From: Balneolaceae bacterium
GTDB taxonomy: Bacteria > Bacteroidota > Rhodothermia > Balneolales > Balneolaceae
Length of the DNA: 64,000 nucleotides
NCBI GenBank assembly: GCA_017795005.1
Contig: CP051242.1
Span: 2,752,976 to 2,816,975 of the forward strand
Direction: 5' to 3'
Shown here: positions 16,759 to 44,845 of the stretch, one piece after another
Numbering within the stretch: position 1 is the first letter of the stretch
Layout: each line of letters begins with the position of its first letter
Translations under genes and position numbers: made by a program
Notes under the pieces: model-generated
What the model saw: the letters and a program-made list of their open reading frames with translations, nothing else
Told to the model about the DNA's origin: nothing
Database searches by the model: none

Positions 16759-17340
16759 CTAGCTATTCAGAAAATCAAAAAGGTCAGCTTCCGGGTCGAG
16801 ACCGAGTTTTTTCCTGAATCTGGACCTGTTTATATAAATACTGGAAGGTTTAATATTTAACAGGTTAGCAATCTCTTTCGAATCCAGTCCCATTTTGATA
16901 TAGGCACTTAACCTCAGATCGTTCACAGTTAAATCGGGGTATTTTTCTTTGAGCTTCTTATAAAATTGTTGATTCAACTCATCAATTTGAATCTCAAAGG
17001 TATCTTCTGTATTGGAGGAAATTGCATCTATCTTCTGAATTACATCATTTACAATTCTTTCAGTTGAATGAGGGCTTTCTTTAATACTTAAAAGCTTATT
17101 CTTTACTTCCTCCAGAACCTGTTTTCTCTCCGTATTCCCCTTGGCAACTTTAGCTAATTCGATTGTTTTTGCTTTTAGCTGAGTTCTTAATTGCTCAGAT
17201 ATCCCTTTTTGTTCTGATAGGTCCGAGTCTATTGAATATTCGGCTTTAGAACTTTCCACATCTTCACCTGGTAAGAACTTCTTTTTAAGTTTGTTTATAG
17301 TTCGTAACTGTATAACTGAAAATAAGAGTGCCAGAACCAA
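16759..17340 (-). CDS. LuxR-type HTH regulator, apparently 5'-truncated
   Basis: The readable part from TTG 17340 is 193 residues: the end of a membrane helix, a basic linker, a coiled-coil-prone segment (about 40-120) and a C-terminal LuxR/GerE-like HTH (LTVNDLRLSAYIKMGLDSKEIANLLNIKPSSIYINRSRFRKKLGL). The same frame stays open upstream to the stop codon of the GH17 gene (17452-17454), adding ...QPWFGISSQLSILLFILL, so the TTG falls inside the membrane helix. No ATG, GTG or TTG exists in that 37-codon extension. Relatives in Bacteroidota have long periplasmic sensor domains ahead of this helix. This copy may be a remnant, or it may be translated from a non-standard start. Its position suggests it once controlled the glucan locus. 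Confidence 0.65.
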   Translation of the reverse strand: MVLALLFSVIQLRTINKLKKKFLPGEDVESSKAEYSIDSDLSEQKGISEQLRTQLKAKTIELAKVAKGNTERKQVLEEVKNKLLSIKESPHSTERIVNDVIQKIDAISSNTEDTFEIQIDELNQQFYKKLKEKYPDLTVNDLRLSAYIKMGLDSKEIANLLNIKPSSIYINRSRFRKKLGLDPEADLFDFLNS

Positions 17341-18365: not shown

Positions 18366-20741
18366 TTACTTTTTAATTTTCAATTGTTCATCTTTATTCC
18401 ATAGTCCCCATCGGGCTCCAACATCACCTTCCTGACGAACTTTCCAGGATTCGTCGAAGGATGAAAAATAATGGATTTCTACTTCATTCGCTTTAGCCCA
18501 CTCCTGCAGGTTTATGAAGTATTTCATCATGTTGATTAATGAAGGCTCTGAATCGCCATTTGAACTACCATCTGTAGGCCATCCTGTTTCAGAAATAACC
18601 ACTTTTTTTCCTCCACTGATTGCCTGTACCAATGCATACATCTTCTCGAGTACGCTCATTGATTCTTCTATAAAGAAGCCTTCCCAGAAAGGATAGCAGT
18701 TAATCATAACCACATCACAGTATTCCAGAAGGTCCTGATTATCAAGAAAGATATAATATGCATCCACATAGGTAACCGGAATATTTGGCAATGCTTCTTT
18801 CACTCTTTTCAGGTATTCAATGATTTGAGATTTTTCCAAGTCACCCCTCATGAGAACCTCATTCCCCACAACGGCAACATCCACATCACCACTTTCAGCG
18901 AGCTTTATTAAGCCTTCTATTTCTTTTTCATTTGTTTCCAGATTGGAATCAATCCATGCCCCTGCTACTGCCTTGAGGTCATGTTTTCGTGAAATAGCAG
19001 GTATTAATTCATTTCCTGCAGTTGTTGAGAACGATCGTACCCACTCTACATAAGGCTTAATAATTTCTACTCTTTCTTCAACTTGTGATTCAGTTAGTTG
19101 ATCACCAACATTTTGGTTATCTCTGTACGGGCTAAAACAAATTCCAGAAATTCCACCTTCTAAAACTTCTGAAAATTTCGCCTTCAGCTCTTCCTCACTA
19201 CTGTCCATAAAGATGGAAGTATGTGGATTTTTTACTACAACATTTGAGAAAGAATTAGCTTTACCAATTTCATAGAAGCTGGTATAATGTTGCTTAACTT
19301 CTTTTAGTTTAGTTTTTGTTTTACGGTCTTCCAGCTGTCTTCGAATATCATTGGCTCGCTCTTCATCAATGTCGTACTTCCACATAATTAAGATTGCTCC
19401 TAAAGTTCCCAGAATTGGTAATCCGGAAAAGAAGACTCTTAAACCTGTAATTCCCGGCCAAACTTCTCCAATTGGGATAGGGCCAGGAAGTGCATCTGCA
19501 CTAAATCCTACGATACTTAAAATGATTCCGCTTAATCCACCGGCGATTGCAAAGCCAAACTTTACCATCCACCAGTAAATAGCGCCAAATACTCCTTCTC
19601 TTCTTACACCATAGTTCAATTCATCCAGATCAATAACATCAGCGGTCATCGACATCATTAATGTGAAAAGACTACCAATCCCAAATGAGAAAAATGGAAG
19701 CGCAAAAATAAACATGTATGGCTTCCCTGGAATTAACAAAAACCAGAATAAAATGTACCCGAAAATAGAAAGGCTCTGAGAAAGGATAAATGCCTTTTTC
19801 TTGCCCATTATCTTCGACATTTTAGCCACTATTGGTATTACAATAAATGTGGTTACTATTGCACCAAGGCTTCCAAATAGCGTTGGCCATAGCCCTGCAG
19901 CTGCAGCATCACCTCCAAATAAGTGATATACAATAACAAAGAAGGTGAAGGCTGCAACCGTATTAAAGGCATTAAAAATTAAGAAGGTTGCAATACATAA
20001 TTTTCTGAATGGCTCCGATTTAAATGCCTCTTTAAAACTGTTTATAATGTCTTTGAATCCGGAACCAATATTGGATACTGTGAGAGGCATATAATCATCA
20101 CGGTCTATTGTCGACTCACTCTTAATTACAAGTGCAGGAATCATCGCACAGATCATAAACAAAATCCCAATCCCGATCGCTAATGTTCGAGTAGCAACTT
20201 CTGCAGATTCGAACCAGCTTGGGTCGTACATTATTACCCAAAGCCACGGCGCAAGCACCCAAGCCCACTGTCCAATCCATTGTGCAATAGCCATAATCTG
20301 AGTTCTCTCATGAAAGTCGTCGCTCATCTCGTAGCCCATAGCTACATATGGCACACTAAATACAGTAATCCCGAGGAAGAAAATTACTGACCATAGCATG
20401 AAGTAAGTGAAGTTATACATGATGGTATTATCAGAGTACAACTGCCACATAATGATGAAGCTAATACCCATCATTATTGCCCCAATAAACACATATTGAC
20501 GTCTACGTCCCCACTTAGATCTGGTGTTATCTGAAATAAAACCCATGATTGGGTCAGTAAACGAATCAAAAATACGTGGAAAGAAAAAGATGACACCCCA
20601 CATCCATCCAGGAAAACCTAAATCCTGAACTAATACAACCATGAAAATACTTAAAACGGCCGGGAACATTTGATTGGCAAGCATCCCCATTCCAAATGCC
20701 AGTTTATAAGAATAAGGTACTTTTTTGGTTACGCTGCTCAT
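18366..20741 (-). CDS. GPH-family sugar symporter fused to cytoplasmic GH17
   Basis: A 791-residue fusion. Residues about 10-455 form a 12-helix glycoside-pentoside-hexuronide (MelB-like) major-facilitator transporter, with SKWGRRRQYVFIGAIM after helix 2, PYVAMGYEMS, and MTADVIDLDELNYGVRREG before helix 10-11. After a charged linker (about 456-500), residues 500-790 form a complete GH17 domain with acid/base Glu628 (VVGNEVL) and nucleophile Glu718 (VISETGWPT). Topology places both termini in the cytoplasm, so the hydrolase would meet oligosaccharides as they emerge from the carrier. The likely cargo is laminari- or gentio-oligosaccharides, coupled to a cation. It sits in the operon between GH30 and the stand-alone GH17. 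Confidence 0.93.
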   Translation of the reverse strand: MSSVTKKVPYSYKLAFGMGMLANQMFPAVLSIFMVVLVQDLGFPGWMWGVIFFFPRIFDSFTDPIMGFISDNTRSKWGRRRQYVFIGAIMMGISFIIMWQLYSDNTIMYNFTYFMLWSVIFFLGITVFSVPYVAMGYEMSDDFHERTQIMAIAQWIGQWAWVLAPWLWVIMYDPSWFESAEVATRTLAIGIGILFMICAMIPALVIKSESTIDRDDYMPLTVSNIGSGFKDIINSFKEAFKSEPFRKLCIATFLIFNAFNTVAAFTFFVIVYHLFGGDAAAAGLWPTLFGSLGAIVTTFIVIPIVAKMSKIMGKKKAFILSQSLSIFGYILFWFLLIPGKPYMFIFALPFFSFGIGSLFTLMMSMTADVIDLDELNYGVRREGVFGAIYWWMVKFGFAIAGGLSGIILSIVGFSADALPGPIPIGEVWPGITGLRVFFSGLPILGTLGAILIMWKYDIDEERANDIRRQLEDRKTKTKLKEVKQHYTSFYEIGKANSFSNVVVKNPHTSIFMDSSEEELKAKFSEVLEGGISGICFSPYRDNQNVGDQLTESQVEERVEIIKPYVEWVRSFSTTAGNELIPAISRKHDLKAVAGAWIDSNLETNEKEIEGLIKLAESGDVDVAVVGNEVLMRGDLEKSQIIEYLKRVKEALPNIPVTYVDAYYIFLDNQDLLEYCDVVMINCYPFWEGFFIEESMSVLEKMYALVQAISGGKKVVISETGWPTDGSSNGDSEPSLINMMKYFINLQEWAKANEVEIHYFSSFDESWKVRQEGDVGARWGLWNKDEQLKIKK

Positions 20742-20763: not shown

Positions 20764-22266
20764 CTAGTTAAGATTTTTTGGAATCAAAATGGTTTGTAAC
20801 GCTTTCCCTTCAATACCTAAAGAGGCAGAACTACCATTTAGAGAAAGAGTAATGTGTTTCGATTCTTCATTCTGATTCAGAATTACAACAGCTACAGATC
20901 CGTCCGGATTTTCAACTGCAGTTACAAGCAGGTTTTCATCGCTTGTTGTAAAATCTATTCGATGCCCTCCGGGTCTGATAAACCGGCTAAAATGAGTCAT
21001 TACATAATAAAGAGGAGTGAAGTACACTTCATCAGCCTCAGGATCTACAATTACTGGTGCAAGGCACCAATTATTAGCCCAGTTCGGACCTCCCTGCTTG
21101 TCCAATACCATATTCCAATCGACCCATCCGTCCACCCAATTGTTTAAGGTGCCAATCATATCGCGGGCATAACGGTAAACCGGAACATATTTTGGATGTA
21201 AATATTTCTGATCTTCAGGAGCCCAGTCCCATCCCCAATCGGTTGCTTCTTTACTCCAATACCATTCATCGTCTTTCCAGCGGGGGACATCTGCATCTGC
21301 TGTAGCTTCTGTTTGGATCAAATATTTGTTTGGAGCGGCATTATGTGCGTATTGAAGAGCATCTTCAAAAATATCATAAGTACTTGCATACCAATGGATA
21401 GCAGTTCCATCAAAATACTTTGCTGCTTGTTCGTCACCATACATTACATCAATCCACTCTTCCAGATGATCCCTGTTTTGATCGTAACCAAGAAGCACTA
21501 CATCATGACCATCTTCTTCCAGTTTTGGACCCAAATGGTTTATAACAAAGTCATTCATTTCTTCGGGAGAATAATGCATACTTTCCCAGTTTTCCCCATT
21601 ACCCAGCGGCTCGTTTTCTACGGTAATTCCCCAAATATCTATGCCCTGTTCGGCATACGCGTCCAGATATTTAGAAAAGAAAAGAGCCCATGTATCATAA
21701 TATTCGGGGAGTAACTTCCCTCCTTTCCAGGCTTTGTTATCTTTCATCCAGATTGGGGCTGTCCACGGAGAAGAGATAATTTTAAATCCTTCGCTGGATA
21801 CTTCCATGGCGTCTTTAATCATAGGAATGATATCGTCCATGTCCTCTTCAATAGAGAAATTTTCCAATTCCACATCCCCTGCAACAGGTGCATAGGAATA
21901 ATTACCCAATGAGAAATCACTGGAATTAATATGGGTTCTGGTCAATGAATACTTAGCGCCGGAATCACCAAAATAAGCCTCAATGATTTTTTCCCGGTTT
22001 TCCTTACTTAGTTCATTTAATAGATATGCCGAAGATTCAGTAAAAGAGCCGCCAAAACCTGTTATTTTCTGAAATTTCTTCTCTGGATGTAAGGTGATTT
22101 CAACTTCATTATTTCTGCTATTTTCAATAATGAAAATATCTGCTTTCTCAAATTTTTTTCCTGATGCTGAAGTTTCATAAACTTCAATGTTTAAAGAATC
22201 ACTCTGGGCACATCCCATTATGGCTAAAATTGAAAATACTGTTATATGTTTTTTGAGGACTGACAA
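20764..22266 (-). CDS. GH30 beta-glucanase/glucosidase lipoprotein
   Basis: A 500-residue protein with lipobox AIMGC (Cys19), hence probably lipid-anchored in the cell envelope. The family pattern KITGFGGSFTESSAYLL (near 67-83) opens the TIM barrel. Glu219 in TVENEPLG is the acid/base and Glu320 in YLIQTEATAD the nucleophile. A C-terminal beta-sandwich (VTAVENPDGSVAVVILNQNE...) is usual for GH30. GH30 includes glucosylceramidases and endo-beta-1,6-glucanases; in a locus with GH16 and GH17, removing beta-1,6 branches of laminarin is the best guess. It overlaps no neighbour and lies 4 bases from the GH17 lipoprotein gene. Confidence 0.9.
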   Translation of the reverse strand: MSVLKKHITVFSILAIMGCAQSDSLNIEVYETSASGKKFEKADIFIIENSRNNEVEITLHPEKKFQKITGFGGSFTESSAYLLNELSKENREKIIEAYFGDSGAKYSLTRTHINSSDFSLGNYSYAPVAGDVELENFSIEEDMDDIIPMIKDAMEVSSEGFKIISSPWTAPIWMKDNKAWKGGKLLPEYYDTWALFFSKYLDAYAEQGIDIWGITVENEPLGNGENWESMHYSPEEMNDFVINHLGPKLEEDGHDVVLLGYDQNRDHLEEWIDVMYGDEQAAKYFDGTAIHWYASTYDIFEDALQYAHNAAPNKYLIQTEATADADVPRWKDDEWYWSKEATDWGWDWAPEDQKYLHPKYVPVYRYARDMIGTLNNWVDGWVDWNMVLDKQGGPNWANNWCLAPVIVDPEADEVYFTPLYYVMTHFSRFIRPGGHRIDFTTSDENLLVTAVENPDGSVAVVILNQNEESKHITLSLNGSSASLGIEGKALQTILIPKNLN

Positions 22267-22270
22267 AATC

Positions 22271-23551
22271 CTATCTGGCCATTATCTCTTCATGTGTTGG
22301 TGGAACCAGAACCGTTTCCATCATCGCATCATAATCCCCATTAAATGTCTTAGTGATAACCTGGCCGTCTCGGGTTAGACCTTCAAACATTCCTGCATCA
22401 ACCAAATCCCAGATAGCATATTTAGCTTCTCCTTTAAGATTTATAAGTCCAAAATGATTTTCGGAGCCCATTTGATTCTGAGCATCTTTCCATTTTTCGT
22501 CAAAAGCTTCGAAATAGAAAACAGAAATACCTTCTTCATTAGACCAATCACGAATTTGATTGTAATACGTACCTGATTTGTACTCATCAATCGCCCGGGC
22601 TCCACCTTTTCCATAAAACTCATTTGAAATAGTGGCCCAACCTGTTTCGCCGATATGCACTGGTTTATCTACTCCAAGGCTATTCATGTACTCTACTACA
22701 CTATTGTACTGGTCGATTGAGTAATTAAGAGCTCGTTCCATTGCCTTATCTACTTTTTCTACATCAGATAAATCTGTTTCATCGTCTCTAACTCCCCAGA
22801 ACTCAGGATTGTAATGAGTATCATGCATCGGATAGGTATGAACAGATAAATAATCCACTGCTTTTATAAGCTTCTCGAGGTCTTCTACATGATAAGATTC
22901 ATCACCTCCACCCCATGAAGCAAAATTATCAGAGCTGGTAATCCATAAATCTTTCGGAAGTTTGCCTTCTTTTTTCAGGTTTTGCAGGTGGTTAACCCAT
23001 TTCAGAATAATGGAGGGTTCTACATAATACTCTGTAGCCCAGTTTACCATTGCCTCATTTCCAACTGCAATGATTTTTATTATGTCTGGATATTCATTGG
23101 CAAGTCTGACAGCTTCAGCTATTTCACTTTCGTTTCTGATACCGTCTTTATCCCGGATACGTACCGGATTATTGGTCCATGAATGTAACGCATCAATCCA
23201 GGCACCCAACATCACATACATTTCAAATTCGGAATCTTCATCCTTCAGTTCTTTAATTGCAGCCAGTACATTTGATGCGTGATCAAGATGCACATTATAG
23301 GTTCTTATGATTTTAATCCCCATCGCCGATAAGATTTTCATGTCTTCTTTTAACTGGGCAACGGTTGGTTGGATTTCACGTGTGATCTCCCGGTATCCTC
23401 CATAAGAAATCGCCTGGTATTCAGGATTGCCAAGGATATCAGCTGCTGTAATGTTTTTGCTGCTATTCATTTTTTGATTTGATCGATTTTCACAATTTGT
23501 TAATAGTCCGAGTGCCAGAATTGGTAATACTAATTTTAATGATATTCTCAT
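22271..23551 (-). CDS. GH17 beta-1,3-glucanase-like lipoprotein
   Basis: A 426-residue protein with lipobox LLTNC (Cys20). The GH17 fold is shown by the first strand AISYGGYR, Glu166 in AVGNEAM (acid/base) and Glu302 in HIGETGWAT (nucleophile). Other landmarks are IIRTYNVHLDHASNVLAAI and YLSVHTYPMHDTHYN. It is only distantly similar to the two cytoplasmic GH17 domains of the same locus, so it represents a separate branch that probably works in the periplasm or on the surface on beta-1,3-glucan. A C-terminal extension (about 380-426, ending PPTHEEIMAR) has no obvious function. Confidence 0.9.
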   Translation of the reverse strand: MRISLKLVLPILALGLLTNCENRSNQKMNSSKNITAADILGNPEYQAISYGGYREITREIQPTVAQLKEDMKILSAMGIKIIRTYNVHLDHASNVLAAIKELKDEDSEFEMYVMLGAWIDALHSWTNNPVRIRDKDGIRNESEIAEAVRLANEYPDIIKIIAVGNEAMVNWATEYYVEPSIILKWVNHLQNLKKEGKLPKDLWITSSDNFASWGGGDESYHVEDLEKLIKAVDYLSVHTYPMHDTHYNPEFWGVRDDETDLSDVEKVDKAMERALNYSIDQYNSVVEYMNSLGVDKPVHIGETGWATISNEFYGKGGARAIDEYKSGTYYNQIRDWSNEEGISVFYFEAFDEKWKDAQNQMGSENHFGLINLKGEAKYAIWDLVDAGMFEGLTRDGQVITKTFNGDYDAMMETVLVPPTHEEIMAR

Positions 23552-23567
23552 AGTTTTACTTTCACCG

Positions 23568-26500
23568 TTATATTAAGCGTTCGCGGTTTAATGATACTTT
23601 TACCAGACTTACTAATCCTGATCTGGTAAATAGCTCATCGGATGTATCAGCATCCAGTTGTAAAGAGTCATTAGATTTTGTTTCTCCATTACTGTATTCT
23701 ACCGATATACCTTCTGTATCTGAAAGCTGATACACTACCGGAACCTGACAAACAGTAAAGCATAGTGCATTTTCCGGGATATTAAGTTGATATTTCATTC
23801 CTTCAAGAGAAATCAATTCTACCTGTTTTGACTCTGAAAGAAATTCATCTTTTGATAGTAATGTCGGAGAAAACTCAAGAACTCCATTACTTACAGTTAA
23901 TCCCAGTTCTCCATATCTGGCTAAAATATCTTCCTTAACCTGCCCTGTCATACCAGGTTGTTGAGCACCTCTGTGAAATGGAGTATGCGAATATGGGTCG
24001 GTAGGGAATGCACCATAGAGCTCTGCTGATTTATGCACTCCAATACCTTCTCCGATTTCATGGAATTTATCTGCTAATTCTCCAAGTATTTCCGATTCAG
24101 CATTAGCTGCTTCCACTCCGACTTCCATAGTAGCCAGGTAAAGTTTGGAAACCATATGCCAGTAAATGGACCCTAGTCCTTCAAATGCATAAAAAGTACC
24201 CGAACGACCGGTAAATGCCTTATGGTTGAATACCTTCTCAAAAATTGAAAGGATTAATTTTCTTTCCGATTTGGGTAATCCTGAATATTCGGATTCTTCA
24301 ATTTCATCTAAAGCCTCGGCCAGGAAGGAAGCATTTTTAAAAGATCCATGGAAATGATACCCTCCATTAACATCTTTCGAAATAATTCTTCGATCATTAT
24401 TCGAAACCATTTTCTTAAGAAGCTCAGACTGCATTACTAAAGACTCTGGTACAGAATTCCGTTCTAAAAATCCTGGGAGTTCCTTATTCGGATACAATAT
24501 GTAACTCATTTGGTCTTCTCGATACAGGCTACTGCTTCGTAGGGCATCAAGAACTTTGAGTGATTCCGCAGCATTTAAATTACCGGAACTAAGTACAGCT
24601 ACCTGACCTTCCAACATTTCATCCAAATAAGAAATAGAGATGCCATCTCCTTCCACACTCATGATATTATAGGCGTGATAAAGATCATCTTCCCTTTTAT
24701 TAGCCTCTATGGAGTGTTCTAAAAACTTAGAAGCTAGGCTAAACAATGAATGTACAGATTGTAACGAAAGTGATACTTTCTTACCGCTGAAGCCTTGATC
24801 ATAAATTGTATTACGAAATGAGCTTCCGGCTATGCCTAAACCGTCTGTAATATCTTTTCGGAGAGAATCATTTATAGGACCTGATAAAGCTTCGGAATGA
24901 CTTTCGAGTACCGAATGAATACTGTTAAAGAACTCGGCTACTTCTTCTGATACCTGAATTTCTTTACCATTTGAAGTAGAAAGAAGTGGCTCAAAGAATT
25001 TCAGGAATCTACGCAAATAGTACAGTGTTACCATCGAAACACCATTTCCTACCAAGGCGTTATTTGCGTCATTCCACTCCGGCCGTTGGGTATTCATCCA
25101 GATTCCACCTTCCGGAATGAAATTTGAAATCTTGGACAATGAAGTCGCCAGTATTTTCTCAATAAAATTAACCCGGTGAATAGAATCTGTTTTATTGGAT
25201 CGAAGTGCTCCGTCAGCACCAATCTCATCAACTAAATCACGAATTTCAGTATCTGATTCGTGATCGAAATCGATAGTGTCTTTCGGGTTTTCTACAATCT
25301 TCTCATACGATTTGATTCGGTATGGTACATTTGCGTACACAAATACATCTGTTGAGTACAACTCTTCGAAAGCTTCTGGTTTATGATCGTAGTAAAACTC
25401 CAGGAATTTGAGCAAGTAAATAATCTGATGGTCACCCCAATATCCAATATAAGACCAGGGATCATCCGGCTCGATAACTTCCCAGTCGAAACCACCTTTC
25501 GTAACCCTATATGGGTTGTATCCATCAAACGTAGTCGCATTGAGAAATTTAAAAATCATGCCCTCGATAAATCCGGGGTATGAGTGAACAAGTGCTTCCC
25601 AATTCTGGAAAATATCTCTCCAGTTTCCTTCATAATCCAGCACCTTAGAACCATCATGCTCATCTCTGGTATTAATAGAAAACTTGTTCCAAGGACGACT
25701 TGGATCTCCGTGTCTGCGGCTAAATTTAAGAGGTAAATACTCTTTAGTTAATCTAATGAGGTCGGGATCGTCAGACTCTGCTAGTTTTTCATCTAACTCA
25801 AATTTATCAAACTCTGCCGGGAGATCTGCGAATAATTCCTTGCTCGAATTAAATACTTCTTTGTTCGCATTTTTGAGGTATTTCAGAAAATCAGGTTTCT
25901 CAATTTGATAGTTATTATCAAAAATTCCACCTCTCATAATGTTAAATAACACATTGGAATAGTGACGGGCGTCTCTGAGTTCATCAGCCGTAAACTGAAA
26001 TCCATCTGAAGCAGCAATAAGTTTTTTCAGATTCTCGGTTCCATTGTCGATATCCTTTTGAATGGCATCCTTAAGATCATTGGAATCTTTAATTATCTCA
26101 TTAAGCTGAATAACAGCCGAGTGATCCAGATTGGTATTTGCAACCATCCACCATTCTGTATCAGAATTACCAGAAAGGTTAATTTCCGATTTTAGAAAAT
26201 AAGCTCCTTTTTCTCCTTTCACATCTGTTTCTTCTTTTACAGATACCAGATTTCTGAAATTATCCAGCTGAAGGGAAGAAAGCAGATAAGTAGGTGAACT
26301 CATTCCCAAAGACCACACTACATTCGCTTTTAAAGCTTCACTTGGTTCAGCCTTATCAACCGGAATGGCGCTTAATGCATAGATGCCTAACCCGGTACTT
26401 CTTTCAAGTTCGTTTCTTTTGTAAGCATCTAACAAGTTGCTCGATCTGTTTTGAAGATCGCTGTTTGTACTTGCCGGCAAAATATTTTGAACCCCATCAA

Positions 26501-27005
26501 TAAGTACGAACGATAATTCGCTACCTGAATTATTTACAAGGGTTGATTTTCGAACAAAGCCGAATAGATCACTTGAATTCCATTCATATCTGAAGGTAGC
26601 GTCAAGATCATTATTTACTTCTTCGAAAATGATCTTATTCCCGAATTTATTTTTGTACAGGTTTCGGGTGATGTCATGTTTAATGGCATTTTTTTCACAA
26701 TAAGGCTCCCAAACTTCCGCGCCATTCGAACCATGAACCTGAATAATTGTTTTGCTGCCTGTTATATGGGCCAGATCCGTAATTTTATCATCGGTGATAT
26801 AAGGAAAGAGTGAAAATTCAGCGTTTTTCCTTCCTGCTGTAAGTCCGCCGTTACTTGAAATAAACATCCAGTGATCCGAATCACTTACCACACTCATAAA
26901 AAATGGTCTTATTGATTCCAGATCTGAAACTTTAAAAAAGGTTTCACCCTTTATTATTACTGATTCCAACATATCCTTTTTTTCCGCTACTGCTTCAGCT
27001 GCCAA
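23568..27005 (-). CDS. GH149-like beta-1,3-oligoglucan phosphorylase
   Basis: A 1145-residue cytoplasmic protein (no signal peptide). Its TTG start at 27005 has a good upstream GGGAG; the next ATG is at 26972. The architecture is that of the large inverting disaccharide-phosphorylase group related to GH94: an N-terminal beta-sandwich (FMSVVSDSDHWMFISSNGGLTAGR ... FSLFPYITDDKITD), then an (alpha/alpha)6 barrel with WRDIFQNWEALVHSYPGFIEGMI, DPWSYIGYWGDHQIIYLLKFLE and GGIWMNTQRPEWNDANNALVGNG. Length and these motifs fit GH149, whose known members phosphorolyse beta-1,3-glucan oligomers to glucose 1-phosphate. GH94 or GH161 are alternatives. Context (GH16, GH17, GH30, transporter) strongly supports laminari-oligosaccharide use. 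Confidence 0.8.
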   Translation of the reverse strand: MAAEAVAEKKDMLESVIIKGETFFKVSDLESIRPFFMSVVSDSDHWMFISSNGGLTAGRKNAEFSLFPYITDDKITDLAHITGSKTIIQVHGSNGAEVWEPYCEKNAIKHDITRNLYKNKFGNKIIFEEVNNDLDATFRYEWNSSDLFGFVRKSTLVNNSGSELSFVLIDGVQNILPASTNSDLQNRSSNLLDAYKRNELERSTGLGIYALSAIPVDKAEPSEALKANVVWSLGMSSPTYLLSSLQLDNFRNLVSVKEETDVKGEKGAYFLKSEINLSGNSDTEWWMVANTNLDHSAVIQLNEIIKDSNDLKDAIQKDIDNGTENLKKLIAASDGFQFTADELRDARHYSNVLFNIMRGGIFDNNYQIEKPDFLKYLKNANKEVFNSSKELFADLPAEFDKFELDEKLAESDDPDLIRLTKEYLPLKFSRRHGDPSRPWNKFSINTRDEHDGSKVLDYEGNWRDIFQNWEALVHSYPGFIEGMIFKFLNATTFDGYNPYRVTKGGFDWEVIEPDDPWSYIGYWGDHQIIYLLKFLEFYYDHKPEAFEELYSTDVFVYANVPYRIKSYEKIVENPKDTIDFDHESDTEIRDLVDEIGADGALRSNKTDSIHRVNFIEKILATSLSKISNFIPEGGIWMNTQRPEWNDANNALVGNGVSMVTLYYLRRFLKFFEPLLSTSNGKEIQVSEEVAEFFNSIHSVLESHSEALSGPINDSLRKDITDGLGIAGSSFRNTIYDQGFSGKKVSLSLQSVHSLFSLASKFLEHSIEANKREDDLYHAYNIMSVEGDGISISYLDEMLEGQVAVLSSGNLNAAESLKVLDALRSSSLYREDQMSYILYPNKELPGFLERNSVPESLVMQSELLKKMVSNNDRRIISKDVNGGYHFHGSFKNASFLAEALDEIEESEYSGLPKSERKLILSIFEKVFNHKAFTGRSGTFYAFEGLGSIYWHMVSKLYLATMEVGVEAANAESEILGELADKFHEIGEGIGVHKSAELYGAFPTDPYSHTPFHRGAQQPGMTGQVKEDILARYGELGLTVSNGVLEFSPTLLSKDEFLSESKQVELISLEGMKYQLNIPENALCFTVCQVPVVYQLSDTEGISVEYSNGETKSNDSLQLDADTSDELFTRSGLVSLVKVSLNRERLI

Positions 27006-27034: not shown

Positions 27035-27874
27035 TTAGTTATCCATTTCATATACCCGCACATAATCAACGAGCATGGTTTGTGGAAATGGAGTGTTATC
27101 GTTAGGAAATCCTGCAAACCAACCACCAACAGCTACATTTAGAATGATGTAAAAGGAATTATCATTAAAAACCCATTCATCACTACCAACATCTTCTGGT
27201 GTAATGGTATTATACAAGACGTCATCTACATAAAAATCTATAAAGTCCGGACCCCATTCTATTGCAAATACGTGGAATTCGGTATCAAATCTGCCGGAAG
27301 ATAACACATATTTATCGGTGATTGCCTCTCCGGCCGAGTAACCCGGACCATGAATGGTTCCATGCACTTCCGTAGGTTGTTGTCCCCTATACTCCATGAT
27401 ATCTATTTCACCAATCTGAGGCCAGATTTCCATACCATCTGAATCATCCCCTAATAACCAGAATGCCGGCCAGATTCCTTGTCCAAATGGAAGTTGAATA
27501 CTAGCTTCAAAACGGCCAAAAGTCCATTCCTCTAATCCTCTGGTTAATATTTTGGCTGAAGTATAACCCGAATTTTGAAATGATTCTTCACGGGCTGTGA
27601 TTTCCAGCATTCCGTTTCTTACTCGGATATTCTCGCTTCTGTTGGTGTAATATTGAAGCTCATTATTTCCCCAACCGGGTTGACCGAAGATTTCCTCTCC
27701 GGTTCCAATATCAAAAATCCAGTTTTCACTGCTTGGTGAGTCACCCGAATTAAATTCGTCTGACCACACCAAGGTTGTGAAACTGTTATCAGGCTCACTG
27801 TTATTATCAGTGCAAGTGGTAATACATACTAATACTGTTACTAATAAGAATGAATGTAAAAATGTAGGATTCAT
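27035..27874 (-). CDS. GH16 laminarinase (endo-beta-1,3-glucanase) lipoprotein
   Basis: A 279-residue protein with an N-terminal hydrophobic segment ending ITTC (Cys21), so probably a lipoprotein. It is a concanavalin-like jelly-roll enzyme starting LVWSDEFN. The catalytic motif GEIDIMEY gives nucleophile Glu156, Asp158 and acid/base Glu161 (ExDxxE form, typical of laminarinases). Aromatic residues WPAFWLLGDD and WFAGFPNDNTPFPQTM line the groove. It cleaves internal beta-1,3 links in laminarin-like glucans outside the cell or in the periplasm. Length is that of the bare catalytic domain, with no extra binding module; the neighbouring lipoprotein may supply binding. Confidence 0.94.
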   Translation of the reverse strand: MNPTFLHSFLLVTVLVCITTCTDNNSEPDNSFTTLVWSDEFNSGDSPSSENWIFDIGTGEEIFGQPGWGNNELQYYTNRSENIRVRNGMLEITAREESFQNSGYTSAKILTRGLEEWTFGRFEASIQLPFGQGIWPAFWLLGDDSDGMEIWPQIGEIDIMEYRGQQPTEVHGTIHGPGYSAGEAITDKYVLSSGRFDTEFHVFAIEWGPDFIDFYVDDVLYNTITPEDVGSDEWVFNDNSFYIILNVAVGGWFAGFPNDNTPFPQTMLVDYVRVYEMDN

Positions 27875-27897: not shown

Positions 27898-30399
27898 TTA
27901 CTGTTGTATGATATTATCGATATAGAATGTTCCTGAGGTAGTGCCCGGACCATCTATAAAGATCGTTACCCTTGGGAAAGCAGCACTGGAACTGAAATTG
28001 AATGTGAGTTCTTCCCATCCAGAACCCCCATGAGTCTGAGCAACTTCTACAAAATTACTACCTCCATCTTCAATTTTCAGTAGTACAGGAACAGAGGTTG
28101 TAGAGTATACATCCATGGTGATGGTAGTTCCGTCATTGAAGTCAAGATTGGATTCAAGATTGAAATAAATACCTTCAAACTGTGCCCCAATATTGGTAAT
28201 TGAACCAACATTGGAAGCGGTGTTATTGGAACCTGAAACCTGAGGGTTCGCTATTACTTCATAGCTTGCGCCATTAAATGTAGTAGCTGCGTAACTCACC
28301 TCTGAGTCATCAAAAGTAATTGGCAATGTTGGAGCTGGCAGAGCTTCAATTACTTCGCCACTATCATAATAGTACACATTGTCAACATAGATATCTGAAA
28401 TAGTTCCATCCGAAATGAAGAATATCAATCCTACTTCATCGTACGCGTCCAAACCAAAATTAACTAAAGGTATGTCTATACTGGTCCATTCACCTTGGGT
28501 TAAATCTGCAGTAGGTACTCGTACTGTATTCCCATTGTTTTCATTTCCTTGCTCAACAGCATTTACTAATCGTAGATCTATATAATCTCCACCATCAAGG
28601 GCTTCATTTATATATATATCTGCATGAATATGAGTCATGTTTGTTACATCAATTGGACTAACATCCTGGAAGGTTCCAATTCCAACAAAATTCAGTGAGG
28701 TATAATTAATAACACCATTACTAGTATCACTATCGATCTTGAAATCTGCCCCCGGAGGCCCTCCCGCGTAACCAGTTCCTCCTTGAGTAGTTGAAAATTC
28801 AAAGAACCCGTTGAAGTAATCAACGTTCACATTAGTATATGTATCGCTGAATATAGAAATCACACTGTCAGAATCTGCAGTAGGAGTCGGAGCCGGATTG
28901 ATATCTACGGTTGGAGGTCCGCTTACGATATCAGAACCATCTGTGTAATAATAGATATTATCTACATAAATATTGGAAACGGTCTCATCCGAAATAAAGA
29001 AGATTAACCCAAGTTGTGAGCGATCTACTAAACCGAACTGAGACAGAGGAATATCAAGACTCACCCATTCATTCTCCATAAGGGTATTCGAATCTATTGT
29101 AACTACTCCAGACGTTTCATTTGAAGTTTGAACACCATTTAAGAGCTGGATTCTGATGAAATCACCGGCGTCTACCGCTTCCTGGACATTTATATCAACA
29201 TGTAAATGAGTCATATCAGAAGCATCAATTGGAGATACATCCAGAAATGTTCCGATACCAACAAAGTTTAGATTTGTATAATTGATAATACCATCACCAT
29301 CAACTACGATATCGGCACCAGGAGGACCTCCATCAAAACCGGTTCCACCTTCTGTTGTCTGTCCATCCGGAATAAAGAATCCATTATAGTAATCCACCGG
29401 TACATTAGTATAAGCGTCCGAGAAGATTGAGATTACACTATCAGGATCAACGGTCGGTACGGGAGCAGTTTGGAAAGCAGCTCCTACGGTAACATCTAAT
29501 GATCCTTCAGCTTGTACACCATCTACAGTTGCAGTAATAGTCGCCATTCCTTCTCCAACCATAGTTATAACACCAAACTGATTTACCGTAGCCACGCTTG
29601 AATTTGAAGAGACAAAGTCGAAATAACTTGGAGCTAACTCGACCGTTACATCTCGGCTTGTTGTCGTACCGTCTGGTAATTCCACGATGGTATTAGAAGT
29701 GTATGAAAAACCAGTTATAGTTTCTGTAAGGTTCACAGAACTTACAATTTGTTGATCCACTCCCCCATTTATGACTGGTCTAGGCTGTGCAATATTTCCT
29801 AGTTTTTCAAATTTCAATTCATCAATCCAAAAGCTATATCCATCACCATCCTCAGGATTTTCTGCAAACCAGAATAATCCGCTTTCGGCAGTTAATTTAG
29901 ATGGGTTGGGGATTGGTATTGTAATCTTTTGCCAATAGGTTGCGATTCTTAAACTATCAACCTTTACCTGATAGTTTGAATTTTGGTCATTTTGGCCAAA
30001 TCCAATCTGGTTAATTCGTGCAGCTTTTGATCCACGTGCATAAAAAGTTAAAGCATCATATCCACTAAGATCTCTTCCTCCATTTATGTCGCGAAAAAGA
30101 GCTCCAGCGTATACTCCGGTTGGATCTTCCGGATTTGGCACATCGATTCTCATAGATGATCCGGCACCATCGAATGTGACATCAGAATCAACCTGAAAGG
30201 CATCTAATTTTGCAAATCCATCTGTATATGGAAAATATTCTAAACCAGCGCTGAATCCGTCCACAAAAACTTCTGGATTATTTGTTAACGTTGGCTCACT
30301 TAAGCCACTAACTGATCGTTCACATCCTGCAAAGATGATCAGGGATGCAAAAGCAGTAAAAACAATTCGGGTAGTATTTTTCATCATATTCATTTTCAT
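27898..30399 (-). CDS. Multi-module glycan-binding lipoprotein
   Basis: An open frame begins at 30429, but GGGAG lies 8 bases before the ATG at 30399 (MKMNMMKNTTRI), which is the preferred start and removes an overlap with the upstream gene. A lipoprotein signal ends IFAGC. Modules in order: a CBM-like beta-sandwich (SMRIDVPNPED...GYDALTFYARGS...FWIDELKFEKL), a bacterial Ig-like Big_2 domain (VATVNQFGVITMVGEGMATITATVDG), two tandem copies of a ~165-residue module (DSVISIFSD(A/T)YTN...IYVDN(I/V)YYY), and a final beta-sandwich (GIYFNLESNLDFNDGTTITMDVYS...FYIDNI). No catalytic motif is seen. It probably captures beta-glucan at the cell surface, replacing a SusE-type binding protein. Flavobacterial laminarinases carry similar repeat modules. 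Confidence 0.82.
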   Translation of the reverse strand: MKMNMMKNTTRIVFTAFASLIIFAGCERSVSGLSEPTLTNNPEVFVDGFSAGLEYFPYTDGFAKLDAFQVDSDVTFDGAGSSMRIDVPNPEDPTGVYAGALFRDINGGRDLSGYDALTFYARGSKAARINQIGFGQNDQNSNYQVKVDSLRIATYWQKITIPIPNPSKLTAESGLFWFAENPEDGDGYSFWIDELKFEKLGNIAQPRPVINGGVDQQIVSSVNLTETITGFSYTSNTIVELPDGTTTSRDVTVELAPSYFDFVSSNSSVATVNQFGVITMVGEGMATITATVDGVQAEGSLDVTVGAAFQTAPVPTVDPDSVISIFSDAYTNVPVDYYNGFFIPDGQTTEGGTGFDGGPPGADIVVDGDGIINYTNLNFVGIGTFLDVSPIDASDMTHLHVDINVQEAVDAGDFIRIQLLNGVQTSNETSGVVTIDSNTLMENEWVSLDIPLSQFGLVDRSQLGLIFFISDETVSNIYVDNIYYYTDGSDIVSGPPTVDINPAPTPTADSDSVISIFSDTYTNVNVDYFNGFFEFSTTQGGTGYAGGPPGADFKIDSDTSNGVINYTSLNFVGIGTFQDVSPIDVTNMTHIHADIYINEALDGGDYIDLRLVNAVEQGNENNGNTVRVPTADLTQGEWTSIDIPLVNFGLDAYDEVGLIFFISDGTISDIYVDNVYYYDSGEVIEALPAPTLPITFDDSEVSYAATTFNGASYEVIANPQVSGSNNTASNVGSITNIGAQFEGIYFNLESNLDFNDGTTITMDVYSTTSVPVLLKIEDGGSNFVEVAQTHGGSGWEELTFNFSSSAAFPRVTIFIDGPGTTSGTFYIDNIIQQ
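28360..28885 (-). repeat. Second copy of the internal binding module
   Basis: This encodes SVISIFSDTYTNVNVDYFNGFF...SIDIPLVNFGLDAYDEVGLIFFISDGTISDIYVDNVYYY. It is clearly homologous to the copy encoded immediately upstream (28935-29460) within the same gene. Protein-level similarity is high, but many third positions differ, so the duplication is not recent. Confidence 0.75.
28935..29460 (-). repeat. First copy of the internal binding module
   Basis: This encodes SVISIFSDAYTNVPVDYYNGFF...SLDIPLSQFGLVDRSQLGLIFFISDETVSNIYVDNIYYY, the tandem partner of the module at 28360-28885. The module ends in a strand with aromatic residues, typical of carbohydrate-binding beta-sandwiches. Confidence 0.75.
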
Positions 30400-30412
30400 G
30401 TTCTTATCTCCC

Positions 30413-33400
30413 TTAATTTCTAATGTCAATTTGGATGTAGGTTCTTATCTCCCATTCTGAACCATTTTCCAGAGAAGTAACACCAGGTGCAGGAGTAATT
30501 GCTCCAGTACTTTCATCCACGGTAACCTGAGAATATCTTGGAGAATATTTATCCAATGTTCGGTACGTACCTCTTATTCCTAATCTGGTAGTAGGTAAAT
30601 CGAACCAATCTGGTTTTCCAAGTGTAGTAGAAAAATCAGCCATTAATTGCATTGGATAGGTTTGGTTGAAATCACGATGATAATCAAATGGTCCCCAGTC
30701 GTTGATCCTCACAAATGAATTCAGTTTCATATTTTTGTAGATCATTCTTAGGTCTGTTCCGAATCTGGTAATTTTTCTTGGGTCACTTCCGCTTGCCTGT
30801 CCGTCACCACCATATATAAGTGCAACAAATCCTAAATCCCTACTGATTTTAGAAACAACACGGGCGTTGATTTCTAATAAATCTTCCGCGGGAGCTGACC
30901 CATTAAATGGAAATGTACTTCTACCGTCAGGGAAGATACCTATCGCAGCATCCTGAACAGTTGGAAGATGTCGATAAACAACTCCTAAACTGATTGCTAA
31001 TTCTGCATCTTCTGATCGGTCACTATCCCAGTTATACATCCACGTTCCAGGGGTAGGATCCCATGTAAATACTACCTCTCCCGCTACCTGCTCTCTGTTT
31101 GATCGAACAGCAAAAGGATCATCGATAATATTTCTGGGACGAGCCGGAGCATCTAAACCTGCAGGTATCGGTCCTTCAATTGGTTTCTGCCATAAAAAGT
31201 TTGGCGCTACCTGGAGATTTCCAATAGTATAAGTAAGACCCGAAAGCACATTGTATTGGTTTCCACTTCCTGTGTCTTTTAATCTCCAACCTGTATATGT
31301 AATCGTCTGATCAAATCCACCGTTGGCTACGAGTCCCATGACAGCACCCTGCCCATACCAGTTAAATTTACCGCCCGTATAAGTCAGTTTTAATTTACCA
31401 CCCCAGTTATCAATCGGTTTGATTTCATCTACATATACATCATATGATTCATCCGATTGTTCTCTCACTAACTGGAATTCTCTTCCATTTAACGGTTGAC
31501 CCGCCCAGATACCGCCAGCTTCAACAGCAAACTTTCCGAATTCTCTGTGACCGTACAGTGTAAATCTACGCGTTTTAGGTTGAGGAATTGCAAAAGAGCT
31601 CTCTATAGATCCCTGACGTTCAAGATCCTCATGATAAATTCCCGTGAAGTCGATCTTTCCAATTCTTCGATCATACTTTAACAGAATAGCAGGGTTTGCT
31701 CCCCACCATAATTCCGGACCAAATGCTGCTTTAAACCCATCAAATTGCTTTCGGCCTTCCACTTCAAAACCGAAAGGAGCTGTCCCATTATAGATATCGA
31801 TATTTGGGCCATAGTTAGCTTCAGGATATAGACCAAAGAAATCTCCTTCGTATCCCCAGTGATAATGACCCGTTCTGTAAAAACCTTCTAACTGAAAGTA
31901 TGGGTTTGTCCAGGTATAGCTTGCGCTGTAAACCGCCAACCTGTTTACATCATTTAGAGTAACATCTTCATATTGCCCTTCCAAATCGACTGGTCTGCCC
32001 CGGTTTTCATAAAATATTTCGTCTATAGGATTTCCGGGAACATTCCCTAAAACACTAAATTCAATATTTCCACGGATAGTTGGTGCCGGATTTGCTTCGA
32101 TTCCAATAAAAAAGGATTCCATATGGTCAAATCCAAGTTGACTCGGATAATCTCTTGGACCCTCAGCCGGTTCATCAGGAGTCGTTATTAAATCACCACC
32201 TGTACTGTAGGTTCTGAAATCTGCGGTAAATCTGCTTAATTTTATGATATCAGCAGAGGCACCTTGCAGAGCCGCTTTATCTCCCCTTGCTCTTAATACC
32301 GCCCCTTCAATATTAATATTATTGAAGTACGCTTCTAATTCTGATAACGAAGCGCTATTAGAATATACATCGTACCGATGTGCTTCCTGAATCACATAAT
32401 ATGCTGCCCGTGGAAACAATTCATAAAACCCTAATGGATCTGTTGGTCCTTTTGCAGTGATTCCGAACCACTCCTCATTCATGTTATTTTCACCCTCTTC
32501 GAAATCGTACTGATAACCACCATTCGCCCATGATGCATTAATATCATGAACATCTAAATTTTCGGTCTGACCATACTTCCACCATCCATCACTGAACTGG
32601 AAAGTAAACCCTCCAATTGAGTTATCAGCTTTACCTAAACCTGCTGCATTTGCATAGATATCTTTCCAGTTTTCCTTTTGAATATATGCCTGATCAGCCT
32701 GTGCTTCAGTTAATGTTCTCGCATTAAATGCATCTACTCCAAATTCAGTTAACAATACCGGCTTATCATATTCGGCAGCTGCAACATCAAATAAATCAGT
32801 GAATGTAGCTCCACGGTAAGTGTTTACTCCTAAGATATCCACATCCGGAGCCAGGTCAACAATGTGTTCCAGAAACAGTACATCTCCATTACAAATAGCT
32901 ACAGGACGGGATGAGTCAATGGTCTTCATAGCAACTGCGGCATCATTCATAAGTTTATACATAGGTCTTCCACGCTCTTGCCCTACAAACGCACGCTCTG
33001 AATCGTCATCGGGAAAATCTTCTGTTTCGGCGCCAGCCCAGAAAAGACCATAATTATTTTCATTCCCTAATAAGTAAAGTAACAGTCCCGGAGTGCCTTC
33101 ATATTCATCTACCATGGTAGTCACTTCATCAAGAAGTAGTTCCATAGTTGCGGGATCATCATACTCTGTGACAGGCGTCCAAACTCCATTAATTGTTAAT
33201 CCATATCTACCGAATGAATGATTAAGCATCGTGTAAATGCCATAATTTTCATAAATGTATTCAATCCATTCTGGCTGTATTCCGGTATACACTCGAATTA
33301 CATTTACTCCCATATTTTTGAGTAATCCCATTTCGTAATCCAATGCACGTTTAATGAAATCAGGAGATTGGTTCCATAAACTATAGGAATAGTTAGTTCC

Positions 33401-33562
33401 TATTGGGAAATAATCCCAGTTCATACCGTTAACCATAAAGGGTTCGCCATCGACCATTAGCTTCCATCCTTCTGCAGATTTTTCGACAGAAACGTCATTT
33501 TGTCCAAAAGCTGATACTGAGAGGAAAGCGAGAATGATCAGAGATAAGAAAAAATTCTTCAT
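30413..33562 (-). CDS. TIM-barrel glycosidase fused to outer-membrane beta-barrel
   Basis: A 1049-residue protein with signal peptide (to about residue 20, VSAFGQ). Residues about 25-430 are a clan GH-A TIM barrel of GH2/GH5 type: GWKLMVDGEPFMVNGMNWDYFP, VNVIRVYTGI, acid/base Glu168 in LLGNENN and nucleophile Glu273 in LLTEFG. From about residue 440 to the end the sequence alternates polar and aromatic residues in long strands (ASYTWTNPYFQLEGFYRTGHYHWGYEG, KLKLTYTGGKFNWYGQGAVMG, TRLGIRGTYRT, WEIRTYIQIDI), as in a transmembrane beta-barrel. It would be a glycosidase tethered by its own outer-membrane barrel. It heads the glucan operon. The substrate is inferred to be beta-1,3-glucan; the barrel could be an anchor or a pore. 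Confidence 0.78.
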   Translation of the reverse strand: MKNFFLSLIILAFLSVSAFGQNDVSVEKSAEGWKLMVDGEPFMVNGMNWDYFPIGTNYSYSLWNQSPDFIKRALDYEMGLLKNMGVNVIRVYTGIQPEWIEYIYENYGIYTMLNHSFGRYGLTINGVWTPVTEYDDPATMELLLDEVTTMVDEYEGTPGLLLYLLGNENNYGLFWAGAETEDFPDDDSERAFVGQERGRPMYKLMNDAAVAMKTIDSSRPVAICNGDVLFLEHIVDLAPDVDILGVNTYRGATFTDLFDVAAAEYDKPVLLTEFGVDAFNARTLTEAQADQAYIQKENWKDIYANAAGLGKADNSIGGFTFQFSDGWWKYGQTENLDVHDINASWANGGYQYDFEEGENNMNEEWFGITAKGPTDPLGFYELFPRAAYYVIQEAHRYDVYSNSASLSELEAYFNNINIEGAVLRARGDKAALQGASADIIKLSRFTADFRTYSTGGDLITTPDEPAEGPRDYPSQLGFDHMESFFIGIEANPAPTIRGNIEFSVLGNVPGNPIDEIFYENRGRPVDLEGQYEDVTLNDVNRLAVYSASYTWTNPYFQLEGFYRTGHYHWGYEGDFFGLYPEANYGPNIDIYNGTAPFGFEVEGRKQFDGFKAAFGPELWWGANPAILLKYDRRIGKIDFTGIYHEDLERQGSIESSFAIPQPKTRRFTLYGHREFGKFAVEAGGIWAGQPLNGREFQLVREQSDESYDVYVDEIKPIDNWGGKLKLTYTGGKFNWYGQGAVMGLVANGGFDQTITYTGWRLKDTGSGNQYNVLSGLTYTIGNLQVAPNFLWQKPIEGPIPAGLDAPARPRNIIDDPFAVRSNREQVAGEVVFTWDPTPGTWMYNWDSDRSEDAELAISLGVVYRHLPTVQDAAIGIFPDGRSTFPFNGSAPAEDLLEINARVVSKISRDLGFVALIYGGDGQASGSDPRKITRFGTDLRMIYKNMKLNSFVRINDWGPFDYHRDFNQTYPMQLMADFSTTLGKPDWFDLPTTRLGIRGTYRTLDKYSPRYSQVTVDESTGAITPAPGVTSLENGSEWEIRTYIQIDIRN

Positions 33563-34455: not shown

Positions 34456-35439
34456 TTATTCAGGATATGTCTTCTCAACCAACTTTTTTGTCGCAATAAT
34501 CCCCTCTTCCTCCGTCATCCCATTTCCTTCATATTCTATACAGATGTATTTTTCAAAACCTGAGTCTTTGACAATTTTCATCATTCTGGTATAATCAATA
34601 GTGGTTTCAAATCCCTGAATATCAAACGCATGAGTTTTTGCACTTACTGATTTAGCATAGGGCATCAGTTTTTCCACACCTATATATCGGTTATAAATAT
34701 CACCATCCCCCCAAATAAAGTCCTCTGAAAAAGTAAAGTTATCGAAGTCTACCACGGTGCCTAATAAGTTATGATCTGCAAGTTCCAGAGTTTCAACCAA
34801 CCAATCTGCGTTACTGGACATCCCACCATGATTTTCAACTAACACATATAGGTTAAACTCTTTTGCTTTTTCAGCAAGTCGGATTAATCCTTCGGCTGCG
34901 AGTTTCTTTTGCTCATCTGCCGGTCCCATACTAAATGCATTTACCCGAATAAATGGACAATCAAGAAAGGCGCACGCCTCCATCCATTTAAAATGATTTT
35001 CTATGGCTTTGGTTCTTTCAGATGAATCCGGGTGACCTATATACCCTTCCTCATCCACCATAATGAGAATGTTTTTAATTCCTTCTGAATCCGTTCTTTT
35101 TTTTAACTCACCAAGAAATATGTTGTCCGTTGCATGACCAAAAATCAAAGAATTCACATATTCAACTGCATTAAAGCCCAATTCTTTGGCTCTTTTTGGG
35201 AAATCTAATGGATGTAATTCTCCCTGCCAGAGTTTATCCGGATCGGAATGTAATAATCGTATCCACTCCTGATAGTTATCTCTGGAAGCACCAAAAATAG
35301 CCCGATGTAAAGCCCATTGAGAAAGTGATAGTTTGAGGTTCTGACTTTTCCTTGAATCTACAGAACCCCAGTCATTTGAGACCACAACCGATGAAGCTAA
35401 GGCCAACGATGAATTCTTAAGAAATTCTTTTCTATCCAT
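34456..35439 (-). CDS. Sugar phosphate isomerase/epimerase-like TIM-barrel protein
   Basis: A 327-residue protein with a Tat-like leader (MDRKEFLKNSSLALASS; the twin Arg is Arg-Lys, so export is uncertain). The body matches the xylose-isomerase-like TIM-barrel family: KLSLSQWALHRAIFG, GFNAVEYVNSL, ILIMVDEEGYIGH, LVENHGGMSSN (metal-ligand Glu), LGTVVDFDNF (Asp), SAKTHAFD (His) and ICIEYEGNG (final Glu). Members isomerise or epimerise free or oxidised sugars, or act in sugar-derivative breakdown. It closes the mannan operon, 2 bases from GH26, so it likely handles a product of mannan degradation, though the reaction is unknown. Confidence 0.82.
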   Translation of the reverse strand: MDRKEFLKNSSLALASSVVVSNDWGSVDSRKSQNLKLSLSQWALHRAIFGASRDNYQEWIRLLHSDPDKLWQGELHPLDFPKRAKELGFNAVEYVNSLIFGHATDNIFLGELKKRTDSEGIKNILIMVDEEGYIGHPDSSERTKAIENHFKWMEACAFLDCPFIRVNAFSMGPADEQKKLAAEGLIRLAEKAKEFNLYVLVENHGGMSSNADWLVETLELADHNLLGTVVDFDNFTFSEDFIWGDGDIYNRYIGVEKLMPYAKSVSAKTHAFDIQGFETTIDYTRMMKIVKDSGFEKYICIEYEGNGMTEEEGIIATKKLVEKTYPE

Positions 35440-35441
35440 TA

Positions 35442-36599
35442 TCAGTTCGAATTCTTAATGGTGTATAAATCCGGTAGTTCATCTTCGAACATGATCAAAT
35501 CAGTATCCCTGAATTCTTTCATATTTGGAGCACTGGCATGATCAGGATGTGAGGCATAGAAATGATCTCTGTTTTCACGCTCCTTGTTGGCGTTTCTCCA
35601 GGTAAGAATATAAGCCACCCCTTTTGCCTTAGGGTTACTTTCAAAAGCAGGGAGTACCTGACCAGTCCACCAGCTTGGGTTTGGAATACTCTCCACTCCT
35701 GTCTCTGAAAGAGCGGCTATTTTGCCTCTTTTGTTTGCTTCTTCAACTAACCATGCGAGTTCATCGCTAAACTCGGCAGGATCACGTTGATCCATGCTTC
35801 CGTAATCGTCCATCCCCAGAATATCCACATACTCATCTCCGGGATATTTTTTCATATAGTTTTCAAATTCTCTTCCAGCCTGATTATCAGGGGAATATGC
35901 CCATAGTAAATTATGAACCCCTTTTTCATCACGAAGATATTCTACTGTGAACCTCCAAAGAATGATGTATTCTTCCACACTCGTCTGCTCCTCGCCCCAC
36001 CAAAACCAGGAGCCAGTATGCTCATGATAAGGACGAAAAATGACTGGGATTAATTCACCTTCTTCTCCTATTAAATCCTGAGTAAAGTCGGCAAACGTAT
36101 CTAACCAGGTTTTAAACTTCTCATGCTGCTCTCCTCCGGGAATAATAGCAGCAACAGCCGGAGTACGATCCCAGGTATTTCCGTCTGTTACCGGGTGATT
36201 CATGTGCCAGCTAATGGTTATAATTCCTCCTCGTGAATACCCCTCTTTAATCCAACCCTTCATATTTTCCCATTCAATATTATCGAGATTGGTGGTTTTA
36301 TCTTCCTGTCGGATATCACCTAAATCCCAACCATATACCGCAGGGTATGAACCTGTAGTTTCTTTAACATCTGATCTTCCCGGTTCTGCCCACCAGGAAT
36401 ACCCATAGGCTAAATCGTCCTGATGACCATAAAGTACATTCGTCTTTGCCAGCTCTTTAAGATTATGAAACAGCGCTTTGGTTTCTTCTGTGGCATTTTT
36501 GTCAATTGGTAAGCTTACTTCTTTTAAACCAGATTCTTCTGATCGGTCACATGCTGCTAAAAAGAAAATACAGAGAAATAATAGGGAAGTTTTTTTCAT
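35442..36599 (-). CDS. GH26 beta-mannanase lipoprotein
   Basis: The frame opens earlier (TTG 36614, ATG 36611), but MKKTSLLFLCIFFLAAC from the ATG at 36599 is a complete lipoprotein signal with lipobox LAAC. The catalytic domain shows GH26 landmarks: NVLYGHQDDLAYGY, ISWHMNHPVTDG, acid/base Glu in FRPYHEHTGSWFWWG (residue 193 from this start) and nucleophile Glu299 in LSETGVE. GH26 enzymes are mainly endo- or exo-beta-1,4-mannanases; those acting at the bacterial cell envelope often release mannobiose. That product would feed the epimerase and phosphorylase encoded just upstream in the same operon. It lies 21 bases after GH5. Confidence 0.93.
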   Translation of the reverse strand: MKKTSLLFLCIFFLAACDRSEESGLKEVSLPIDKNATEETKALFHNLKELAKTNVLYGHQDDLAYGYSWWAEPGRSDVKETTGSYPAVYGWDLGDIRQEDKTTNLDNIEWENMKGWIKEGYSRGGIITISWHMNHPVTDGNTWDRTPAVAAIIPGGEQHEKFKTWLDTFADFTQDLIGEEGELIPVIFRPYHEHTGSWFWWGEEQTSVEEYIILWRFTVEYLRDEKGVHNLLWAYSPDNQAGREFENYMKKYPGDEYVDILGMDDYGSMDQRDPAEFSDELAWLVEEANKRGKIAALSETGVESIPNPSWWTGQVLPAFESNPKAKGVAYILTWRNANKERENRDHFYASHPDHASAPNMKEFRDTDLIMFEDELPDLYTIKNSN

Positions 36600-36620
36600 A
36601 ATTAGTACCATCAAAATGGT

Positions 36621-37721: not shown

Positions 37722-37747
37722 ACAGTTTTATTGATTTTCAGGTTCAA

Positions 37748-38992: not shown

Positions 38993-38995
38993 CTT

Positions 38996-40174: not shown

Positions 40175-40194
40175 TCAGCTTTTTAATTTTCAGA

Positions 40195-42021: not shown

Positions 42022-42080
42022 TTATAAAAGGGTGAGTTTCCGAAAAAGATGTAATTAAGAAAGTTGAACTCATGGAACAA

Positions 42081-42114
42081 ATTAAAAAGAAGGTGGCGGT
42101 GTCATCCGCCACCT
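42081..42114 (-). terminator. Terminator or attenuator between beta-helix gene and symporter
   Basis: A perfect 9-bp stem AGGTGGCGG (42091-42099) / CCGCCACCT (42106-42114) has a 6-base loop; read on the minus strand it is followed by TTCTTTTTAATT. It lies after the beta-helix gene and about 60 bases before the symporter start, so it would lower or end transcription into the enzyme operon. Confidence 0.8.
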
Positions 42115-42138
42115 AATTAAGATAGTTTTTGACTAAAG

Positions 42139-44772: not shown

Positions 44773-44845
44773 GTTTATTTCTCCAATTAGAAATTGTAAG
44801 GTTATTAGGTTTATATGATTTCACCAGAATTAATCCGGTAAATTT

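Follow-up and report, generated by a model that had tools for sequence, protein, structure and literature searches.

A transporter–GH17 fusion in a laminarin-type operon of a Balneolaceae bacterium and its free GH17 neighbour

Laminarin represents one of the major carbon pools in the sea. A single chain in which a transporter precedes a GH17 enzyme has been described for FbGH17B of Formosa sp. Hel1_33_131 (FORMB_24740, AOR29491.1), which consists of an N-terminal 12-helix MFS domain and a C-terminal GH17 domain (Unfried et al. 2018, PMC6246565). Exo-β-1,3-glucosidase activity on oligosaccharides was measured for this protein, with release of glucose, hydrolysis coupled to uptake was proposed, and the MFS–GH17 fusion was stated to be common among marine Flavobacteriia (PMC6246565). 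MlGH17B from Muricauda lutaonensis is reported to be a transglycosylase, with Tyr136, Trp191 and Glu192 indicated as the residues needed for transfer; FbGH17B has a Met at the position of Tyr136 and keeps the Trp and the Glu (PMC11005184). Laminarin loci with a gene content matching the one presented here have been reported from Muricauda and Formosa (PMC13188888, PMC6246565). A literature search for other reports of transporter–hydrolase fusions found no further relevant paper. The fusion type has been known since 2018 and the gene analysed here is a further case, its reading as a novel architecture being ruled out by the description of FbGH17B (PMC6246565). What appears to be new, judging from sequence comparison, is the wider host range, the pairing of fused and free GH17 enzymes, their division by one residue and the exchangeability of the enzyme tail.

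The window, i.e. the whole stretch of 64,000 nucleotides of contig CP051242.1 that was analysed, holds the fusion gene within a run of genes that all lie on the minus strand (Table 1). The original prediction of a continuous frame that encodes a 12-helix GPH transporter followed by a full GH17 domain is borne out by Pfam, phmmer, AlphaFold2 and Foldseek alike, and its coordinates are exact; it had left the strand unstated. PF13347 (MFS_2) matches residues 16–460 of the fusion (E = 6e-66) and PF00332 (GH17) matches residues 697–788 (E = 2e-11), the GH17 part being widened to residues 552–784 by phmmer on PDB entry 4wtp (E = 4e-31). The structure prediction of the full chain that had been called for was made with AlphaFold2, with 45 aligned fused proteins as input. 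The model (mean pLDDT 83.9) contains 12 long membrane helices, a C-terminal helix 460–479, a poorly ordered linker around residues 478–488 and a complete barrel from about residue 516. The transporter half matches MelB with a Foldseek TM score of 0.84 by target, and the GH17 half matches RmBgt17A (PDB entries 4wtr and 4wtp) with a TM score of 0.86. Both catalytic glutamates are located in the (β/α)8 barrel at the positions that had been predicted. The order of the domains in the open frame, GPH/MFS first and GH17 second, is that of FbGH17B.

Table 1. Features of the fusion gene and of the surrounding operon (positions in the window).
Feature	Position	Strand	Remarks
MFS(GPH)–GH17 fusion gene	18366..20741	−	ATG start, 791 aa, single open frame without internal stop
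GPH/MFS transporter domain, residues 1–476	19314..20741	−	PF13347; phmmer versus MelB 4m64; fold match
Linker, residues 477–514	19200..19313	−	Low model confidence 478–488; variable in alignment
GH17 (β/α)8 domain, residues 515–789	18375..19199	−	Acid/base E628, nucleophile E718, Met631
GH2-like TIM-barrel protein	30413–33562	−	Same run as fusion
843-aa protein with Big_2 domain	27898–30429	−	Same run as fusion
GH16 lipoprotein-like endoglucanase	27035..27874	−	PF00722
GH149 β-1,3-glucan phosphorylase, no signal peptide	23568..27005	−	NF058639, 1721 bits, cutoff 1150
Second GH17 type, lipoprotein-like signal	22271..23551	−	Weak PF00332
GH30 enzyme, lipoprotein-like signal	20764..22266	−	PF02055; operon member
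Free cytoplasmic GH17, 301 aa	17452..18357	−	49% identical to fused domain; Tyr present (GNEVLYR)

The fusion is the second-last gene of the run and is followed, 8 bp beyond its stop codon, by the free GH17, in which no signal peptide is recognisable. GH16, GH149, GH17A-type and GH30 genes adjoin the fusion on the same strand, and together with homology they back the β-1,3-glucan role that the original prediction had assigned to it. The second GH17 occupies the operon position of FbGH17A and MlGH17A when the gene order is compared with that in PMC13188888. No SusC/SusD pair belonging to the locus was recognised adjoining the fusion. The earlier reading recognised the fusion; it overlooked the adjacent free paralogue and the 2018 description of the same architecture. 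Its statement that GH17 enzymes are normally secreted and a cytoplasmic form is unusual does not stand, signal-less enzymes such as MlGH17B and the free GH17 of the window being routine beside this transporter. Directly downstream of the operon, 16759–17340 encodes a short protein that weakly matches a LuxR-type HTH and also resembles, again weakly, the BT3442 family. The upstream neighbour cluster (34456–47941) is mannan-like, with GH26, GH130, a GlcNAc 2-epimerase-like protein, an SSF (sodium:solute) symporter and a TonB receptor.

In the phmmer alignment to MelB (PDB entry 4m64), Asp55 and Asp59 of MelB align with Asp59 and Asp63 of the fusion, while Asp19 and Asp124 are replaced by Gln24 and Ser129, respectively. 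The first pair belongs to the cation site of MelB, the second to its sugar-binding residues. The retained aspartate pair together with the 12 helices of the model identifies the domain structurally as a GPH symporter; TIGR00792 matches over the full length with 184 bits, below its cutoff of 231. Since the Asp pair is kept and the sugar-site residues are replaced, the alignment favours cation-driven import of a sugar other than that of MelB, and MelB is therefore no guide to which sugar is transported. The operon and the relationship to FbGH17B suggest laminari-oligosaccharides. In the MelB family the C-terminus is cytoplasmic, and by homology the GH17 domain of the fusion is likely to face the cytoplasm as well. 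Topology from charge counts alone was discarded: a simple hydropathy scan saw 11 of the 12 helices and the charge bias gave no clear orientation, and MelB homology and the model were used in its place.

We propose, with a probability of about 0.78, that the fusion is the inner-membrane step of a laminarin/β-1,3-glucan degradation operon, where it would combine cation-coupled import with cytoplasmic, end-on hydrolysis. The GH16, GH30 and GH17A-type enzymes would debranch and shorten the glucan at the surface or in the periplasm, and the GPH transporter would then carry short laminari-oligosaccharides together with a cation across the inner membrane. At the cytoplasmic C-terminus, near the exit of the carrier, the Met-bearing FbGH17B-type domain would hydrolyse them from the chain end to glucose. 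Other chains would be shortened to glucose 1-phosphate by the cytosolic GH149 phosphorylase, and the free Tyr-bearing GH17 may rearrange chains through transglycosylation. The fused enzyme might act on oligosaccharides during their entry, as was also put forward by Unfried et al., and tethering may bring a functional gain.

The active site is where this proposal meets its most serious competitor. Met631 occupies the position of the transglycosylase Tyr in the fusion of the window, which hence carries Met–Trp–Glu (Trp686 and Glu687 being kept) in place of the Tyr–Trp–Glu set of MlGH17B. The free paralogue has the complete set and, as it keeps the Tyr, it resembles the transglycosylase MlGH17B. 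Both catalytic Glu residues and the Trp–Glu part of the set are invariant across 93 fused and 97 free domains. The Tyr is replaced in 90 of the 93 fused domains and retained in 80 of the 97 free ones, counts that mostly go back to one old split in the GH17 tree and so are not to be read as many independent events. The main activity of the fused GH17 could nevertheless be transglycosylation rather than hydrolysis, by which oligosaccharides entering the cell would be lengthened or branched and thereby retained there. In favour of this, its nearest solved structure, RmBgt17A, is a glucanosyltransferase, transglycosylases are known among the free relatives (MlGH17B, for example), and Trp686 and Glu687 are retained. 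We consider this unlikely given the absence of the Tyr, here and in nearly all fused domains, and the release of glucose by FbGH17B, which has the same Met. Residual transglycosylation by the fused enzyme is possible, because the closest solved structure (4wtp) is that of a glucanosyltransferase and because Trp686 and Glu687 remain. A third, more distant GH17 type (G3, about 310–345 aa) with a Val at the Tyr position is next in line in about 25 relatives (e.g. L050:8184–9221); a search of the genome of the window with the fusion as query did not find it.

The history of the tail bears on a second alternative, in which the GH17 domain is a tether or a substrate-sensing or regulatory domain of the transporter and catalysis carries little weight. 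Unfused members (e.g. L020, L029, L116 and L119) are dispersed within the fused clade of the transporter tree, a pattern which implies that the tail was lost more than once; in L020 the unfused transporter lies about 28 bp ahead of a free GH17. The tail is dispensable in that it was repeatedly lost while the transporter remained. We nonetheless regard a non-catalytic role as very improbable, as Glu628, Glu718 and the residues of the −1 and +1 subsites show no variation among the 93 fused domains and FbGH17B is active. In two members of the genus of the window (L029 and L031) a tail-less transporter is found, and a free GH17 is encoded on the other strand.

The tail also appears to have been replaced. 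A weakly supported branch of the GH17 tree has all fused domains on one of its sides, apart from that of L007. This relative, from the family of the window, groups among free GH17 enzymes of Balneolaceae; its GH17 domain is at most 58% identical to fused domains and reaches 72% identity with free ones. At this locus (L007:1495–3957, minus strand) the transporter is joined to a free-type, Tyr-bearing GH17 and the free gene's own start is visible in the linker, which leads into NMSFREERFLNFK and matches the start of the free GH17 protein of the window, MSYREETFMKFK. No free GH17 adjoins the L007 fusion. In the simplest reading a deletion likely took out the old tail and thereby fused the transporter to the following gene. 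A separate origin of L007 was not accepted from the tree alone, since constraining all fused domains together is not formally rejected (AU p = 0.08); the linker is the stronger evidence. Fused-type GH17 domains are also found on another transporter subfamily, about 45% identical and with insertions, in L042:1498–3993 (minus strand, 831 aa) and L043:295–2862 (plus strand, 855 aa).

A search for the same fusion, which had been suggested for other Balneolota along with the original prediction, was made across a wider range of relatives and gave more than 90 homologues overall. Within the order of the window, 16 of 129 genomes (including that of the window) carry an unbroken fusion, and in one further genome it is split at contig ends. 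Among the matches listed, at least 80 loci that set a lower limit to its range, it is found in Flavobacteriaceae, Cyclobacteriaceae, Flammeovirgaceae, Microscillaceae, Saprospiria and Balneolaceae, and also in Burkholderiales (Rubrivivax, Hydrogenophaga and Rhodoferax); the closest relatives among them are Balneolaceae MAGs with about 80% identity over the full length, in support of the gene's origin in Balneolota. Although MFS and GH17 are separate neighbouring genes in some relatives, an assembly or frameshift artefact that fused two genes is effectively ruled out, because the genome is a single contig and more than 90 independent homologues, full-length and open, carry the same fusion in many independent assemblies.

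The fusion is usually accompanied by an adjoining free cytoplasmic GH17. This is the next gene on the same strand after 70 of 91 complete fused genes, often with a gap of 2–3 bp, and in eight Betaproteobacteria it lies just upstream of the fused gene. More tentatively, the fused and free enzymes may make up a conserved cassette of two enzymes that divide the work, in which a hydrolase tethered at the mouth of the importer would be complemented by a soluble transglycosylase rebuilding branched glucans as a transient store in the cytosol; the tail would be an exchangeable module that can be lost, swapped (L007) or placed on another transporter subfamily (L042 and L043). The fusion clearly exemplifies the union of uptake and hydrolysis in a single protein. 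Through the survey an observation from one strain becomes a pattern that can be tested, namely a widespread pair of fused and free GH17 enzymes divided by one active-site residue, and the natural variants with lost or swapped tails, together with this pair, make a direct test of the importance of tethering possible.

Compared with FbGH17B, represented in the sequence comparison by a proxy, the Formosa MAG L060, the protein of the window shares the 12-helix MFS and GH17 domains in one gene, a laminarin locus with GH30 and GH17A, and a Met in place of Tyr136, the Trp and the Glu being retained. Unlike FbGH17B, its host belongs to another phylum, Balneolota, and a free GH17 follows 8 bp downstream. 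The latter enzyme is like MlGH17B, a free cytoplasmic GH17 with Tyr–Trp–Glu in the same place beside an MFS gene; in Muricauda, however, MFS and GH17B are described as separate genes, whereas the transporter of the window bears a GH17 of its own. RmBgt17A of Rhizomucor miehei (PDB entries 4wtp, 4wtr and 4wts) shares the GH17 barrel (30% identity by structural matching) and both catalytic Glu residues, but it is a free-standing fungal glucanosyltransferase with Tyr102 and no transporter. The melibiose symporter MelB (PDB entries 4m64, 7l16 and 9old) resembles the transporter half over its entire length and in its fold and cation-site Asp pair; it differs in sequence (about 17% identity), in the sugar-site residues Asp19 and Asp124, which are replaced in the fusion, and in having no enzyme tail.
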